Below, piece after piece: positions 32-9,696 of a DNA stretch of 21,233 nt; the stretch's first letter is position 1, and each line of letters begins with the position of its first letter. The stretch comes from a virus. Position numbers and translations under genes: made by a program. The DNA lies in the IMG/VR virus record IMGVR_UViG_3300034109_000943, positions 1 through 21,233 of that record. The stretch is one strand, 5' to 3'. Below the pieces are notes generated by a model. It did not search any database, was not told the origin of the DNA, and saw only the letters and a program-made list of their open reading frames with translations.

Positions 32-2692
32 GTGAACATTAACTTTCGTAAAGGCTCTTGGGCGATACTCCCTGCGTTAATTGTATCTTTTGTATCTATA
101 TTTGTGTCTTCCCCATATGCAAGCGCAAACCCTGTCTCTATCCCCGATGCGGGGTTTGAAGATAACACCTTTACTGGCTGGTCAAGAGGATCACAAACAG
201 GAACTCTTGGAGCATCAATTAATGGGAACGGTACTGGCGTAACAATCTTTAATGGTTCAAGAACTTTTACTCATGGCGCAAATGGGGCGATGGGAAGTCC
301 AACACTTTCAAATGGTAGCCCAAACCCATATTATGCTTCTGCAGTTGCTGCGGGTAGCTGGACTTTTTCTCCAAAGGGTGGGACTTATGCTGTTGCCCTA
401 CAACCAAGAGGTCAGCAAACATTTGACCAAGCAACTAATGCCGTTGGTCTTTCTGGAGCAAATAACTCCGCAATTAGAACCATGCTTGCACAGCAGGCTG
501 CTGCTGCTGGATTTGGCGGTGGTAATCCAACCGATGCAGCATGGATTACTCGTGAAGTTCAATTAACTGCGGGGGTAGTTTACACGATGTCTTGGAACTA
601 CATGGCAACTGATTATGTTCCATTTAATGATGGCTCAATTACCTCACTTGTCCCTGTCACCGTTGCATCAACTCCAGTTATAACTGTAAATAATTTTGAA
701 CAATCATATGCACTTCTTGGTTTTACAAATCCAGGCACAGGAGACTATTCAACAAACTCCTACGGTGCTACTGGCTGGCAAGTGTCAACTTATGAAGTTT
801 CTGTGTCAGGAACATACAAACTTGGCTTTACATCATTTAACCTAGATGACCAAGGTTTGCCACCAGTTTTGATGGTTGATGATGAAATAGGCTCAACGCA
901 GAAATGTGTTCAGGGTGGATCTTGCGAAACATTTGGCGGGGTTGAGCCAAATAACGAAACTGCTCCAACACTTCCTCCGACTACTACCACAGAGGCAACT
1001 ACTACAACGACCACTACTACAACGACCACTACAACGACCACCACAACAGTTCCAAATACAACCACTACTACAACTACCACCACGACCACCAGTGTTGTAC
1101 CCTACTTTAATTCAATTCAAAATTTAACAGCTACAGCGAATGAAAATGGGAGTGTAACTCTAAATTGGGATGCACCGAATGCAAGCAATACACAGCCATA
1201 CATGTACAACATTCTTTTTTATGATTTGAATAACGGGGTAGAGTCTGGCGGCTGGGGTGTCTGGACATATGGCGCAAACACTACTTACACAATCAACACA
1301 TCCTCACAGACTGGCTATGGCTCTGTGCGATTTAAAATTCAAGCAGGTACATCTCCATGTGTGGGGGAGGGGGTTGGGAATTGTTTGTATGGTCCTCAAG
1401 AAGTTATTGACATAACAACATCTGAGCCTATTGCGGCTACAACCACCACCTCTACAATTTTTATAAATATACCAGAGCCCCCTGTCATTGTATATCCACC
1501 TATAAATACAACAGTGGAGCTCCCAGAGCCCTCTGAGCCCCTACCTGAGATTGAAACGGTAATTGAGGAACCAGCAATTACGGTACCTGAGTTTGAACCC
1601 ATAGACTCAATTTTAGAAGAAGTTGAAGTGGACACCAGCTTGCCAGACTTTGAAATCATAGATACCGAAATTTCAGAACCTGAAATTGTGGACACTTTTA
1701 TTCCAGAGTTTGAAGTTGTTATAACTGAAGAGGTATTAACGGAAGAGCAGGTTGGTCAAGTCATTGATGAGATTATGAACGCTTCTGTAGAAGATGTCAT
1801 ATATTTAATTGACACACTTTCTGTTGAGCAACTAGATCAGGTTTTTGAAGAAGTATCTGTGGAGCAGTTGACAGAAATCCTAGACAGCCTTTCGGCAGAA
1901 GAGGTTCTGGATGTTATTGAAAACATTGAATCAGTTGACGCACTAGAAAATGTCATTGACGCAATCAGTGAAGAGACAATTGATCCAGATACTGCGATTG
2001 CAGTTATTGAAAATGGAAACTTTGAAGAACTTCCTATTGAACAAATTGCGGAAGTGTTCGCTGCAATTGAGCCAGATCAATTTACCGAAGAGCAGAAAAC
2101 AGAATTAGCAACAGCACTTACTGACGCTCCTGCTGAAATTAAGGAATCGTTTGAGGAAGAAGTTGACATCTATGGAGATGGGTTTGATGACTACACCCCT
2201 ACAGGTTCTTCTATTGATGTTGGAACCCGTAAATCAATCTTGGCTGCAACAGCCGCAGTAGCCGCAATAGCTGTTGGCTCTGCATCTACTGGAGGAAGCA
2301 CTGGTGGTTCATCTGGTGGATCTGGTGGTTCGGGCGGGTCTGGTGGTTCTGGAAGTTCTGGGGGAACAGAAGGTCGTTCTAGAAAAGAAGAAGAATCAGA
2401 AGGCGGGTTCTCTGGAGAGATTGCAGGTCCAGGGGAAGACGATGGTGAAGATTTTACAAAAAATAGTATATACAAGTATTATATAAGGGAGGGTAAAGAA
2501 ATGAAAAAGTTTAATTGGTTTGGTTTTAGCAAAAAGATGTGGGATATTACTGCTGGATTGGCATTTACCCTCGCAGGAAGCCTTGTTGTCTACATTACGC
2601 TTTCTGGGGTAACTCAGAGAATTGCTGGAATTGCAACACTAACTGCTATCCTCGTGCATTATGTGCATGAAATTCTAAAAAATGACGAATAA
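32..2692 (+). CDS. Secreted, threonine-rich, membrane-anchored surface protein
   Basis: I do not recognise a named family. The 886 residues read as an exported modular protein. Residues 1-32 form a signal peptide (basic start, hydrophobic core, ASA before NP). Residues 34-300 are a Gly/Asn/Thr-rich, probably beta-sandwich domain beginning with a GFEDNTFTGW-type motif seen in secreted carbohydrate-binding-like proteins. Residues 317-353 are a threonine-run linker, likely O-glycosylated or mucin-like. Residues 357-465 resemble a fibronectin type III domain. Next come a Pro/Glu-rich stalk (480-560), helical 12-residue repeats from 585, a hydrophobic stretch (about 734-750), a Gly/Ser linker, an acidic segment and two membrane segments at the C-terminus. 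The GTG start is chosen because it begins the signal peptide and sits six bases after a TATAAT. Export suggests it decorates the infected host's surface (adhesion, superinfection exclusion or lysis control), not the virion; this is inference. The last 63 residues may be a separate gene, described at 2501. Confidence 0.75.
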   Translation: MNINFRKGSWAILPALIVSFVSIFVSSPYASANPVSIPDAGFEDNTFTGWSRGSQTGTLGASINGNGTGVTIFNGSRTFTHGANGAMGSPTLSNGSPNPYYASAVAAGSWTFSPKGGTYAVALQPRGQQTFDQATNAVGLSGANNSAIRTMLAQQAAAAGFGGGNPTDAAWITREVQLTAGVVYTMSWNYMATDYVPFNDGSITSLVPVTVASTPVITVNNFEQSYALLGFTNPGTGDYSTNSYGATGWQVSTYEVSVSGTYKLGFTSFNLDDQGLPPVLMVDDEIGSTQKCVQGGSCETFGGVEPNNETAPTLPPTTTTEATTTTTTTTTTTTTTTTTVPNTTTTTTTTTTTSVVPYFNSIQNLTATANENGSVTLNWDAPNASNTQPYMYNILFYDLNNGVESGGWGVWTYGANTTYTINTSSQTGYGSVRFKIQAGTSPCVGEGVGNCLYGPQEVIDITTSEPIAATTTTSTIFINIPEPPVIVYPPINTTVELPEPSEPLPEIETVIEEPAITVPEFEPIDSILEEVEVDTSLPDFEIIDTEISEPEIVDTFIPEFEVVITEEVLTEEQVGQVIDEIMNASVEDVIYLIDTLSVEQLDQVFEEVSVEQLTEILDSLSAEEVLDVIENIESVDALENVIDAISEETIDPDTAIAVIENGNFEELPIEQIAEVFAAIEPDQFTEEQKTELATALTDAPAEIKESFEEEVDIYGDGFDDYTPTGSSIDVGTRKSILAATAAVAAIAVGSASTGGSTGGSSGGSGGSGGSGGSGSSGGTEGRSRKEEESEGGFSGEIAGPGEDDGEDFTKNSIYKYYIREGKEMKKFNWFGFSKKMWDITAGLAFTLAGSLVVYITLSGVTQRIAGIATLTAILVHYVHEILKNDE
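980..1090 (+). repeat. ACN-rich tract encoding threonine runs
   Basis: About 37 codons are nearly all ACT, ACA, ACC or ACG, encoding threonine interrupted only by Glu-Ala and Val-Pro-Asn. Codon choice varies irregularly, so the tract is kept at protein level and is not a pure DNA microsatellite. It links the N-terminal domain to the fibronectin-like domain and probably acts as an extended spacer. Confidence 0.85.
1784..1927 (+). repeat. Tandem 12-residue helical repeats (four units)
   Basis: Residues 585-632 of the surface protein hold four consecutive 12-residue units: SVEDVIYLIDTL, SVEQLDQVFEEV, SVEQLTEILDSL and SAEEVLDVIENI. A degenerate fifth follows. The pattern is Ser-(Val/Ala)-Glu then alternating hydrophobic and acidic positions, consistent with a short helix-turn solenoid or coiled stalk. 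DNA identity between units is modest, so the duplication is old or kept by selection on the protein. Confidence 0.75.
2281..2375 (+). repeat. Gly/Ser-rich linker repeat (GGS units)
   Basis: Codons for Gly-Gly-Ser repeat about nine times, directly after a hydrophobic stretch of the surface protein (residues about 734-750) and before an acidic segment. This is a flexible linker of low complexity. It may be prone to expansion or contraction. Confidence 0.7.
2458..2466 (+). other. A AAA AAT slippery heptamer followed at once by TAG in the -1 frame
   Basis: In the surface-protein frame the codons are ACA AAA AAT AGT. The heptamer AAAAAAT at 2458-2464 has the X XXY YYZ form of a -1 slip site. A slip there makes the next codon the TAG at 2464-2466 and ends the protein at about residue 811, before the nested small membrane protein. 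One extra A in the run, by transcript slippage or assembly error, would give the same stop. Confidence 0.45.
2501..2692 (+). CDS. Nested in-frame small membrane protein, holin-like (63 aa)
   Basis: An ATG at 2501, in the same frame as the 886-residue protein, is preceded six or seven bases upstream by a very strong Shine-Dalgarno sequence (AAGGGAGGGT at 2485-2494). That is hard to explain unless translation starts there. The 63-residue product begins MKKFNWFGFSKKMWD and has two hydrophobic segments (about residues 16-36 and 41-58) separated by a short turn with an Arg, then a charged tail. This size and shape match small phage holins or antiholins, and it lies just upstream of two more small membrane proteins and an endolysin. 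The preceding codons (2456-2500) read like translated leader sequence. Either the protein is made both alone and as the anchor of the long protein, or the two genes are fused only in this sequence. Holin function is inferred from topology and context. Confidence 0.55.
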   Translation: MKKFNWFGFSKKMWDITAGLAFTLAGSLVVYITLSGVTQRIAGIATLTAILVHYVHEILKNDE

Positions 2693-2746: not shown

Positions 2747-2944
2747 TTGTCTACTTTGTTGAATGAGAATAATAAGAAGATGCTTGCATCTTGGGTAAGA
2801 TCCTTTATCGGAGCTTCATTGGCTGTCTATATGACAGGTAATCATGATCCTAAAGCAATTGCTACAGCAGGTGTTGCTGCTCTTGCACCTGTGATTATGC
2901 GTTGGTTGAATCCAAACGATACTGCATTTGGTCGTACTAAGTAA
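2747..2944 (+). CDS. Small two-segment membrane protein, putative holin (65 aa)
   Basis: The start is TTG at 2747, six bases after a near-perfect Shine-Dalgarno sequence (AAGGAGGT, 2733-2740). The upstream in-frame TTG at 2726 has no such site and would translate the Shine-Dalgarno region. The product has two moderately hydrophobic segments, roughly residues 13-29 (WVRSFIGASLAVYMTG) and 37-52 (AIATAGVAALAPVIMR), joined by a short Asp-containing loop. The C-terminus is RWLNPNDTAFGR. I recognise this ending from small phage proteins often annotated as putative holins or left hypothetical. Neighbours are another small membrane protein and the endolysin, so a role in permeabilising the inner membrane for lysis is likely but not shown. 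It could instead be an antiholin or pinholin. Confidence 0.65.
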   Translation: MSTLLNENNKKMLASWVRSFIGASLAVYMTGNHDPKAIATAGVAALAPVIMRWLNPNDTAFGRTK

Positions 2945-2968: not shown

Positions 2969-3226
2969 ATGGCACAAGTTAAGAATATCCTTTTGAGGAT
3001 ATTGGCTACATTTGCTGCATCGGGTTTAAGTGTAATCGGTGCTGGCGCTATAGCTAATGTCCCTTTGTGGAAAGCCTGCTTCATGGCAGGCATCGCTGGC
3101 GTTGCCGTAGTTGTGGAAGGACTCTCACGAGCATTCCTAGATGATGGTAAACTTAGTTTAGATGAAATTAATGCGGTATTTTCTAAAGTTGATAGAAAGA
3201 AAACCGCAGAAGGAGAGACCAAATAA
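2969..3226 (+). CDS. Small membrane protein, probable holin (85 aa)
   Basis: An ATG preceded by AGAGG starts an 85-residue protein. Residues about 8-30 and 33-50 form two hydrophobic, Ala/Gly-rich segments, followed by a charged C-terminal tail, a typical small-holin layout. The tail contains DDGKLSLDEI, which resembles the second half of an EF-hand loop (Asp-Gly, hydrophobic, then Glu) but lacks the first two metal-binding acidic positions; similar tails occur in holin-like proteins of Gram-positive phages. The stop codon overlaps the next start (TAATG at 3224-3228), so translation is probably coupled to the endolysin, the classic holin-endolysin pairing. Of the small membrane proteins here it is the best holin candidate by position. 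No enzyme motif is seen. Confidence 0.7.
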   Translation: MAQVKNILLRILATFAASGLSVIGAGAIANVPLWKACFMAGIAGVAVVVEGLSRAFLDDGKLSLDEINAVFSKVDRKKTAEGETK

Positions 3227-4068
3227 TGGCTAAGAGAACAGAATGGGATTATATTGTTGAAGTTAAACTTCCAGTAGCGCTGAAAGGTATTGAGCCAGGC
3301 AAGTTGCACCCAAGTTTACTGAGAGATATCCCAGGCGGCGGTAAGTTGTTTTATCTTGCTGCTGATGCATGGCTGGCAATGGTTGAAGCTGCAAAGGCTG
3401 ATGGTGTTGAGCTTAAACCCACGAGTAGCGGAGATTTATATCGCAGTTATGACAGCCAAAAGGCAGGATTCCTTACCCGCTACCAGCTTGAGCCGATTCC
3501 TGGTCAGAGCACAAAAACTTTTGAAGGTAAGACTTGGTACTTGAAGAAGGGCATGGCGATGCTTGCCACGCCTGGCAAGTCACAGCATAACCTCGGCTTG
3601 GCAGTTGACATTGCTAATGCAAGTGACAAGAAAAGAATTAATTGGCTGATTGCTAATGTTGAAAAGTTTGGGTGGAGTTGGGAAGTAGTTCCTTCAGAGC
3701 CTTGGCACATTCGTTATGTATGTGGTGATGCAGCGCCTCAAGCAGTTAAGGATTATGTTGCTCGTAATCCAAGACCAGGCGGACCATTTGGTTCCGTTGC
3801 AGATCAGAAAGCCGCTGCTGAAGCAAAGACTGCAGCGCCAACCGCAAATGTTCAAGCTGCTGCAACAAAAAGAACTGTTAAGCAAGGAAGCGCTGGTCCT
3901 CTTGTAAAAGAAGCTCAAACTCTTTTAGTTAAGCATGGTGTTGTGTGTAAAATTGACGGTGATTTTGGTCCAAAGACCGCACAGTTAGTTAAGGATTTTC
4001 AAACTAAAAATGGAATCACTGCAAGTGGTGAAGTAGACCAAGCAACTTGGTCAATATTGCTGGCATAA
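3226..4068 (+). CDS. Endolysin: VanY-type D-Ala-D-Ala carboxypeptidase with peptidoglycan-binding domain
   Basis: This 280-residue enzyme should cut peptide stems in host peptidoglycan. Residues about 35-175 form a VanY / peptidase M15 domain: LYRSYDSQ (71-78) matches the conserved Arg-containing motif, SQHNLGLAVD (119-128) supplies zinc ligands His121 and Asp128, and EPWHIRY (158-164) supplies catalytic Glu158 and zinc ligand His161. An Ala/Pro-rich linker (about 185-215) leads to a PG_binding_1 domain (217-279) with the usual GxxGPxVKxxQxxL and DGDFGPKTAxxVKxFQ patterns. All catalytic residues are present, so it is probably active. There is no signal peptide, so release would depend on the holin-like proteins upstream, with which it is translationally coupled. 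A virion-associated lysin is possible, since fibre and neck genes follow, but the holin coupling favours an endolysin. Confidence 0.9.
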   Translation: MAKRTEWDYIVEVKLPVALKGIEPGKLHPSLLRDIPGGGKLFYLAADAWLAMVEAAKADGVELKPTSSGDLYRSYDSQKAGFLTRYQLEPIPGQSTKTFEGKTWYLKKGMAMLATPGKSQHNLGLAVDIANASDKKRINWLIANVEKFGWSWEVVPSEPWHIRYVCGDAAPQAVKDYVARNPRPGGPFGSVADQKAAAEAKTAAPTANVQAAATKRTVKQGSAGPLVKEAQTLLVKHGVVCKIDGDFGPKTAQLVKDFQTKNGITASGEVDQATWSILLA

Positions 4069-8966: not shown

Positions 8967-9018
8967 TCGCCCCTTGGTATTTTGTGATAAACTTAATAAC
9001 CGAGGGGCGAAGCCCTTT
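8967..9018 (+). promoter_or_regulatory. Two mutually exclusive hairpins between tail tube and chaperone (attenuator-like)
   Basis: Arm 8967-8978 pairs with 8999-9010 in a 12-bp stem (one G-U pair) around a 20-nt loop. Within its right arm begins a second hairpin: AGGGGC (9003-9008), loop GAA, GCCCTT (9012-9017), followed by TATAT. The two cannot form together, as in attenuators. This gap lies where expression should drop from tail tube to chaperone. It may be a partial terminator with antiterminator, an RNA processing or stability site, or a control of translation at 9047. Confidence 0.55.
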
Positions 9019-9046
9019 ATATACGAGACATAAGGATGGAAACATT

Positions 9047-9352
9047 TTGAGTGATAAAAACAAAGACATTTTGGCAGGTAAGGAAATTACTTTTGCTGAT
9101 GGTAAGACAAGAACAATTAAGCCTCTAACTATTCGTAACTTGCGTAAGTTCATGGCGGTAGTTAAGGATTTGAAGACAGAAGATACTCTTTCTGATGCTG
9201 ATATTGACATCATGGTTGAAGCTGCTGGTATTGCATTGGCAACTGTTGATCCTGAGCTTGGTAACAACAAGGAAAAACTTGAAGATGTGCTTGACCTGCG
9301 TTCGTTTGGCGAACTCATGTCAGCCGCAATGGGTTCAGACCCTTCCTTCTAG
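9047..9352 (+). CDS. Tail assembly chaperone, short form (lambda gpG-like, 101 aa)
   Basis: The TTG at 9047 is chosen because AAGGATGG (9032-9039) lies seven bases upstream; the earlier in-frame GTG at 8984 would run through the hairpin region without a ribosome binding site. The protein has an N-terminal beta part (ILAGKEITFADGKTRTIKPLT) and then helices (NLRKFMAVVKDLK, DADIDIMVEAAGIALATV, KLEDVLDLRSFGELMSAAMG), typical of siphovirus tail chaperones whose opening resembles the 'element of the tube protein, then recruiting helix' plan. It would bind the tape measure and recruit tube subunits. It ends at TAG 9350-9352. The following reading frame, open in -1, supplies the long form. Position between tube and tape measure is diagnostic. 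Confidence 0.75.
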   Translation: MSDKNKDILAGKEITFADGKTRTIKPLTIRNLRKFMAVVKDLKTEDTLSDADIDIMVEAAGIALATVDPELGNNKEKLEDVLDLRSFGELMSAAMGSDPSF

Positions 9353-9406
9353 GCGAAGAGGGGGATCAGCTCACTTCAGGTCAGGAGGGTTCTGATCTGA
9401 AGTGGG
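9340..9406 (+). other. Programmed -1 frameshift region with downstream stem-loop
   Basis: The -1 frame is open from 9295 to 9693 and has no plausible start codon, so the downstream part must be reached by shifting before TAG 9350. Candidate slip site: C CCT TCC at 9340-9346 (first tRNA re-pairs fully as CCC, second needs a G-U pair at the middle base), not a classical heptamer. A stem-loop follows: 9370-9384 pairs with 9392-9406 in about 15 bp, loop GAGGGTT. The gap from slip site to stem is about 23 nt, longer than usual. Confidence 0.55.
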
Positions 9407-9696
9407 AGGATATTCCCCTGCTCAAATATGAATCTGAAATATTTGTAAAAACAGGAGCATGGGTTAGCCTGGGATCGCTAGAAGAACATTTAACCCTAAA
9501 TGAATTATTTTTGCTTTATAGAGCATGCAACAATGAAACAAGCATGCAGATGAAAATTGCTGCCGCCTCGCAAGGTGCTGAGGTTGATTTTGAAGATGAT
9601 TGGTATGATCCAACTCCACCAAGAGCAGCGCAGGTTCATGACATTATGGACATGAAGTTTGGTATGGGTTATGAAACTGTTAAGAAACAAGATTAG
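9352..9696 (+). CDS. Tail assembly chaperone, frameshifted C-terminal part (lambda gpT-like)
   Basis: This frame continues the chaperone after a -1 slip; the joined protein would be about 216 residues, entering at codons CTT CTA GGC around 9346-9354. It begins with a Gly/Glu/Ser-rich linker, then DLKWEDIPLLKYE and a helical SLEEHLTLNELFLLYRACNN segment typical of the T part of G/T chaperones, and ends in an acidic stretch (AEVDFEDDWYD) and KFGMGYETVKKQD. The linker-plus-helix layout matches the established plan in which T binds tube subunits while G binds the tape measure. The only in-frame start-like codon, TTG at 9511, lies inside the conserved helix without a ribosome binding site, so it is not an independent gene. 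Confidence 0.7.
   Translation, partial: GEEGDQLTSGQEGSDLKWEDIPLLKYESEIFVKTGAWVSLGSLEEHLTLNELFLLYRACNNETSMQMKIAAASQGAEVDFEDDWYDPTPPRAAQVHDIMDMKFGMGYETVKKQD

Follow-up and report, generated by a model that had tools for sequence, protein, structure and literature searches.

The 886-codon open reading frame (ORF) at the left end of virus record IMGVR_UViG_3300034109_000943 probably gives rise to two products: a surface protein, exported and anchored in the membrane, and a holin-like hairpin of 63 residues that would be translated on its own from a start nested in the same frame. The window analyzed here is the whole of that record (21,233 bases, positions 1 to 21,233), and its source is a freshwater bacterial virus, a tailed phage. 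Comparison with relatives shows that the fusion of the two parts is unbroken, that the nested site is conserved in the window's clade, and that the hairpin has free-standing homologues. Coordinates of all features are collected in Table 1.

The nested start and its conservation

A first-pass annotation of the window had described an ORF of 886 residues, a heptamer A AAA AAT (2458-2464) followed by a TAG in the -1 frame (2464-2466), and a strong Shine-Dalgarno sequence with an in-frame ATG at 2501 that opens a 63-residue frame with two membrane segments, and all of these are present in the sequence. The window has both a start codon and a ribosome-binding site inside a longer gene and in frame with it, the features that mark an in-frame nested gene. 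Of 148 internal in-frame ATGs in the 15 window ORFs, two have a Shine-Dalgarno match of at least 5 at a distance of 4 to 12 nucleotides, and ATG 2501 is one of them. When the seven codons upstream of this ATG were recoded synonymously, an equally strong site arose with p = 0.0145. Recoding to the observed pairing energy gave p <0.05 in 18 of 19 window-type rows, which share ancestry, the exception being L015 with p = 0.18.

Our first set of relatives held 51 viral loci, three of which (L034, L036, and L053) start inside the hairpin, leaving 48 that were usable. The frame is open upstream to the limit of the sequence in all 48, with at least 40 open codons in 46 and the entire ORF in 23, and the ATG and GGAGG are likewise kept in every one. 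Codon choice within the site is uniform. Codon -4, a glutamate, is GAG in all 29 distinct sequences, compared with a GAA:GAG ratio of 223:70 elsewhere in the same region, and it remains GAG in 35 of 35 contexts with glutamate at that place once sister lineages are added. Codon -5 is AAG or AGG in all 29, while elsewhere in the region AAA:AAG stands at 153:93 and AGG accounts for 9 of 118 arginine codons. A single codon is used in just 6 of the region's 29 conserved two-fold columns. In the window's clade, the nested site looks selected at synonymous sites, beyond the needs of coding. Two codons farther upstream, -8 and -7, likewise never vary from TAT in the 29 distinct sequences, a uniformity that exceeds what coding needs and is unexplained.

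A wider set, in which near-copies were collapsed, gave 142 distinct contexts (117 fused, 17 separate, and 8 undetermined), with "fused" called by length alone as at least 100 open codons before the motif. The set drew on the best 80 of 190 relatives in one search and the best 80 of 143 in another, and it therefore covers part of the hairpin family. The hairpin motif was found in 250 of 252 loci (exceptions, L069 and L245). One 147-residue protein (L089) is not a surface protein and stands wrongly among the 117; it was excluded from the count of cellular fusions. In fused ORFs, the ATG at the hairpin has a Shine-Dalgarno match of at least 5 in 46 of 96 contexts and of at least 4 in 83 of 96, compared with 7 and 44 of 665 for ATGs farther upstream in the same ORFs, although the hairpin counts use the best ATG within a 19-codon stretch, a choice that favors the hairpin figure.

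A named counterpart is Actinomycetia phage DSL-LC01, described in PMC10611076 as a metagenome-assembled phage from Dishui Lake. Its protein WJZ48438.1 (OQ999401.1; 944 amino acids, annotated as a hypothetical protein) is a fused homologue with a Shine-Dalgarno sequence and an in-frame ATG before the hairpin, but its hairpin is 63% identical to that of the window, its endolysin is not adjacent, and its start is shifted: there is no ATG at the window's column, and AAGGAG with an in-frame ATG lies six codons nearer segment 1 (h-15 versus h-21; recoding p = 0.065, and 0.033 in a wider test). In the cellular locus L055, whose contig bears the title Actinomycetota bacterium, GGGAGGT lies 6 nucleotides ahead of the ATG (recoding p = 0.0155, and 0.09 in the wider test). 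At the level of sequence, the nested start shifts yet persists in some lineages.

The hairpin as a gene of its own

In L101, a more distant sibling of the window, an in-frame TAA precedes GAGGAG and an ATG at the homologous place, and this stop before the ATG fits the hairpin as a gene in its own right. Free-standing hairpin genes of about 55 codons occur in seven viral contexts (L282, L286, L288, L289, L295, L296, and L301). A VanY endolysin lies downstream within 3.5 kb in 7 of 8 separate viral contexts, including all seven of these, and no surface protein precedes the hairpin gene in the four separate viral contexts that were inspected. Among the 221 genomes of the family of G001, matches were found in 16, of which 8 are fused, 7 have two genes, and 1 is of another kind. 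The surface frame stops 5 to 40 nucleotides ahead of the hairpin start in the seven two-gene cellular genomes; in G585 this frame is just 128 codons within the piece covered. With an earlier profile, 395 genomes of the class were also searched and 8 gave matches; three of the 8 are weak or differ in kind (G077, G173, and a split G025 counted twice). Among INPHARED phages, the search for a stand-alone hairpin had the fused DSL-LC01 as its sole match, and the diverged stand-alone hairpin of L073, used as a second query, found no match. In a tree of 113 hairpins (54 columns), switches between separate and fused number at least 6, of which the starred branches force only 1. Repeated fusion or splitting is suggested by this tree.

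The hairpin matches positions 2 to 45 of phrog_29041 (E 6.9e-5), a 55-position family of unknown function that, unlike the window protein, has no ectodomain. It shows the traits of a holin in being small, in having two hydrophobic segments and a positive N-terminal flank (four Lys/Arg before segment 1), and in lying near an endolysin in the window. Because profile searches against named holin families gave no match (phrog_29041 alone was hit, with a weak phrog_18585 match for one relative), we call the hairpin holin-like and not a holin. An endolysin lies downstream in 73 of the 100 fused viral contexts that have at least 1.5 kb of downstream sequence, which suggests a lysis role for the hairpin.

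One gene, two probable products, and the alternatives

The 886-residue product is predicted to be an exported surface protein that ends in the membrane hairpin. Its parts run in the order of a signal-like stretch, ectodomain, threonine-rich linkers, acidic repeats, a hydrophobic segment that we term TM0, a Gly/Ser linker, a charged stretch, and the hairpin. TM0, at residues 735-751, is an addition to the first-pass account, and it is present in every surface portion checked, whether fused (window, L017, L040, L055, and L064) or separate (L101 and L066). The ectodomain is swapped among close relatives while the C-terminal part stays constant (L017, L019, L026, L037, L051, and L063-L065). It carries a legume-lectin domain in L037 (E 7.1e-44) and a right-handed beta-helix in L019; PA14 matches in L017, L026, and L051 are all subthreshold. 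In cellular relatives, the ectodomain modules are DUF4082, RCC1 repeats, and DUF285. The MgtE_N match of the acidic repeats rises above the cut-off in L026 (38.5 bits). AlphaFold2 gave a mean predicted local distance difference test score of 39.4 for the ectodomain and 47.6 for the C-terminal region, which is too poor for any conclusion to rest on these models.

From this architecture we infer the following mechanism, with a topology predicted from hydropathy and charge only. The long product would be exported via its signal-like N terminus, show its variable ectodomain, and span the membrane at TM0; past TM0, the Gly/Ser and charged linker would lie in the cytoplasm, followed by a hairpin with both termini inside. 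The positive-inside rule is an established guide to membrane topology, and together with the Lys/Arg residues before segment 1 it predicts that the linker harboring the nested start lies in the cytoplasm, and that fusing or splitting there would therefore leave the topology unchanged. With a ribosome-binding site and ATG in the linker, the same message may also yield the 63-residue hairpin alone, as a holin-like protein of the lysis region. That the hairpin occurs both fused and separate, and retains a start of its own in the fused form, is best taken to mean that this partner is also needed free, which favors two products meeting in the membrane. Free hairpins could then form membrane assemblies with a minority of full-length copies built in, and the surface protein might be clustered by the holin-like assembly, or temper it, or both. 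We put forward this co-assembly of the free hairpin and the full-length protein tentatively. A further step, in which tethered copies let the ectodomain (lectin, PA14-like, beta-helix, or other) restrain or trigger free hairpins upon ligand contact, is speculative and on balance improbable. If it were true, the timing of lysis would be set from outside the infected cell, and in host bacteria this module would act at the surface without lysis, whether its parts are split or fused.

Several observations weigh against two products, and the nested site could be a relic. Eight of the 117 length-called fused contexts have no in-frame start (L102, L110, L136, L137, L140, L142, L146, and L169), 13 have an ATG whose Shine-Dalgarno match falls short of 4, and GTG or TTG is the only start in another 13. 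The first seven of those eight do have an ATG there, but out of frame; as a separate observation, its Shine-Dalgarno sequence persists, and the frame it opens is very short. Throughout the large L054-type lineage, the site is just GGAG at 8 nucleotides with recoding p mostly >0.1, and relatives of that lineage carry Leu (TTG or TTA) in the start column. A match of at least 5 occurs in just one of nine cellular fusions, that of L055. The free-standing phage genes L282 to L301 have their own start without a Shine-Dalgarno match, and hence do not show what a start in the hairpin family needs. Finally, 27 of the 100 fused viral contexts, DSL-LC01 included, have no endolysin just downstream, nor do the cellular hairpin genes have one as a neighbor, which weakens a purely lytic role. 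Given the losses in several lineages, the nested site characterizes some lineages, including that of the window, and not the family as a whole.

These points bear most directly on an obligate fusion, in which the 886-residue protein would be the sole product, with the hairpin serving just to anchor it in the membrane and the nested site surviving from a time when the hairpin was a separate gene. The eight fused contexts that have no in-frame start are as this alternative would have it, as is the lack of a strong site in most host fusions. In the window's clade, however, the synonymous positions of the site are fixed where neighboring ones vary, ATG with GGAGG is retained at all 48 loci, and TM0 already offers an anchor; we consider an obligate fusion possible but rather unlikely. 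It is very unlikely that the short product is made from its own transcript. A candidate internal promoter, TTTACA-18-TATTAT at 2453-2482, agrees at 10 of 12 positions and takes in the uniform TAT codons at -8 and -7, but such sites are no commoner in the sequence than in shuffles (4 found; mean 3.0, standard deviation 1.6), relatives such as L017 have a different upstream hexamer, and a transcript starting about 7 nucleotides past TATTAT would begin within the Shine-Dalgarno sequence.

The first-pass annotation had proposed three products, of which the fused 886-residue frame and the nested site stand, and the third, an approximately 811-residue secreted form produced by a -1 slip at A AAA AAT, is without support. 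The heptamer and the TAG behind it exist in the window. Among 40 distinct window-type contexts, 13 have the heptamer intact, but it reads TAAAAAT in 14 and is broken in the remainder, so that in 27 of 40 it is absent or altered even though the Asn-Ser codons that make the TAG stay. The conserved in-frame slippery heptamer expected of a programmed -1 frameshift was therefore not found across these contexts. The TAG itself is retained in 35 of 40 because it is part of the conserved Asn-Ser codons AAT AGY, and the heptamer demands merely Lys-Asn codons behind a codon ending in A. Of the elements to be followed in relatives, then, the nested start is kept in the window's clade, the TAG is kept through its codons, and the A-run heptamer is not. 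A slip product of about 810 residues would also keep TM0, which lies upstream of the A-run, and so need not be freely secreted. Programmed frameshifting to a shorter third product is very unlikely. The simpler alternative offered at first pass, two ordinary genes with one A missing from the run in the window sequence, is hardly credible: L101 and seven cellular genomes do carry the homologues as separate genes, but the frame stays fused in 48 of 48 usable viral relatives, many of them with the run altered or absent, which argues that no base is missing, and no relative in the window's clade combined seven As with a fixed stop.

Known systems and neighboring genes

The principle of a nested in-frame start is already known. 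As reported in PMC5408679, gene I of filamentous phages has an internal in-frame start that gives an N-terminally truncated membrane protein, and its products gp1 and gp11 form a complex in which both are required. We liken this pair to the window gene by gene organization, as a phage gene with an internal start for a shorter membrane protein, and not by homology; gp1 has a cytoplasmic ATPase domain and no exported ectodomain, gp11 has one transmembrane segment, and the two act in assembly and do not belong to a lysis region. For cas8b, PMC11899642 reports a nested in-frame start that yields the C-terminal part as a small protein, Cas11b, important for effective interference; these are soluble cellular proteins of CRISPR (clustered regularly interspaced short palindromic repeats) systems, with neither a membrane hairpin nor a phage lysis context. 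The short form of SctQ/SpaO is, according to PMC13059759, the C-terminal part, is kept in systems of this kind, and enters one complex together with the full-length form, but it belongs to a cytosolic secretion-system scaffold whose sequence is unrelated as far as seen. The actinobacteriophage holin-like protein LysF1a, as presented in PMC13056207, is small, has two segments with a predicted N-in C-in topology, and belongs to a lysis cassette that encodes at least two holin-like proteins; it differs from the hairpin in being a separate gene, and the likeness is one of features and not of homology.

Here, such a start lies where an exported surface protein meets a holin-like hairpin; in open-licence PubMed Central text, we found no description of an exported, swappable ectodomain combined with a nested holin-like hairpin. 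The parts occur separate, split by a single in-frame stop, fused with an internal start, and fused without one, in both phages and cells, and these four natural arrangements make the need for the free form testable by comparison. Co-assembly of the two products, if it occurs, would physically tie a phage surface protein to the lysis region. Gene callers report one protein where two may be made, and the DSL-LC01 record has the long one only.

Table 1. Features of the window, with strand and the basis of each assignment
Feature	Position	Strand	Basis or remark
Full-length ORF, 886 amino acids	32..2692	+	GTG 32, stop 2690-2692; frame open across A-run and hairpin
Hydrophobic N-terminal stretch, residues 11-27	62..112	+	Hydropathy; signal-peptide-like by hydropathy alone
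Threonine-rich linker between ectodomain modules	961..1100	+	Translation
Acidic helical repeat stretch, residues 577-648	1760..1975	+	Weak MgtE_N match, 19.7 bits (Pfam cut-off 25.9)
Hydrophobic segment TM0, residues 735-751	2234..2284	+	Hydropathy; followed by Gly/Ser linker
A-run, proposed -1 slip heptamer A AAA AAT	2458..2464	+	Intact in 13/40 distinct contexts
Nested Shine-Dalgarno sequence GGGAGGG	2487..2493	+	Core GGAGG ends 8 nucleotides before ATG 2501
Nested in-frame gene, 63-residue two-segment membrane hairpin, phrog_29041-like	2501..2692	+	In-frame ATG 2501
Hairpin segment 1, residues 839-855 of long protein	2546..2596	+	Hydropathy
Hairpin segment 2, residues 866-882 of long protein	2627..2677	+	Hydropathy
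Next small membrane protein	2747..2944	+	TTG start behind AAGGAGG, picked by eye
Holin-like protein	2969..3226	+	phrog_443 holin, E 3.7e-6
Endolysin	3226..4068	+	VanY peptidase and peptidoglycan-binding domain

From left to right, the window holds the 886-codon ORF, a small membrane protein, a holin-like protein, a VanY-type endolysin, and further ORFs, with its right part taken up by an ORF of 3,830 codons that is still open at the window's end and that we read as the tape measure from its size and position. The ORF list begins the frame of the small membrane protein at TTG 2726 instead of the start in Table 1. Homology between this protein and the hairpin was considered on the basis of a weak pairwise match (28% over 36 residues, E 0.001 in a single comparison), but profile comparison gave a probability of 5 and left it without support. 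The best match of the separate holin-like protein is phrog_26427, labeled nuclease.

The top PHROG match of the endolysin is phrog_16823, a tail tape measure family (positions 916 to 1070 of 1948); the peptidase domain is apparently common to this endolysin and to tape measure proteins. Two overlapping frames lie at 8984-9696, directly before the 3,830-codon ORF, where one frame stops at 9350-9352 and the -1 frame continues to 9696, an arrangement that we take to resemble tail assembly chaperones made by frameshifting. Among the relatives, L054 (JAURLY010000091.1) is a phage-like contig, with a surface fusion, a VanY endolysin, and a holin-like gene, in a bin titled Gammaproteobacteria; it is probably mis-binned phage DNA because the IMG/VR contig L174 is near-identical to it. 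The 147-residue protein of L089 (genome G536) also has a similar hairpin at its end, with an endolysin-like ORF and further small membrane-like ORFs behind it.

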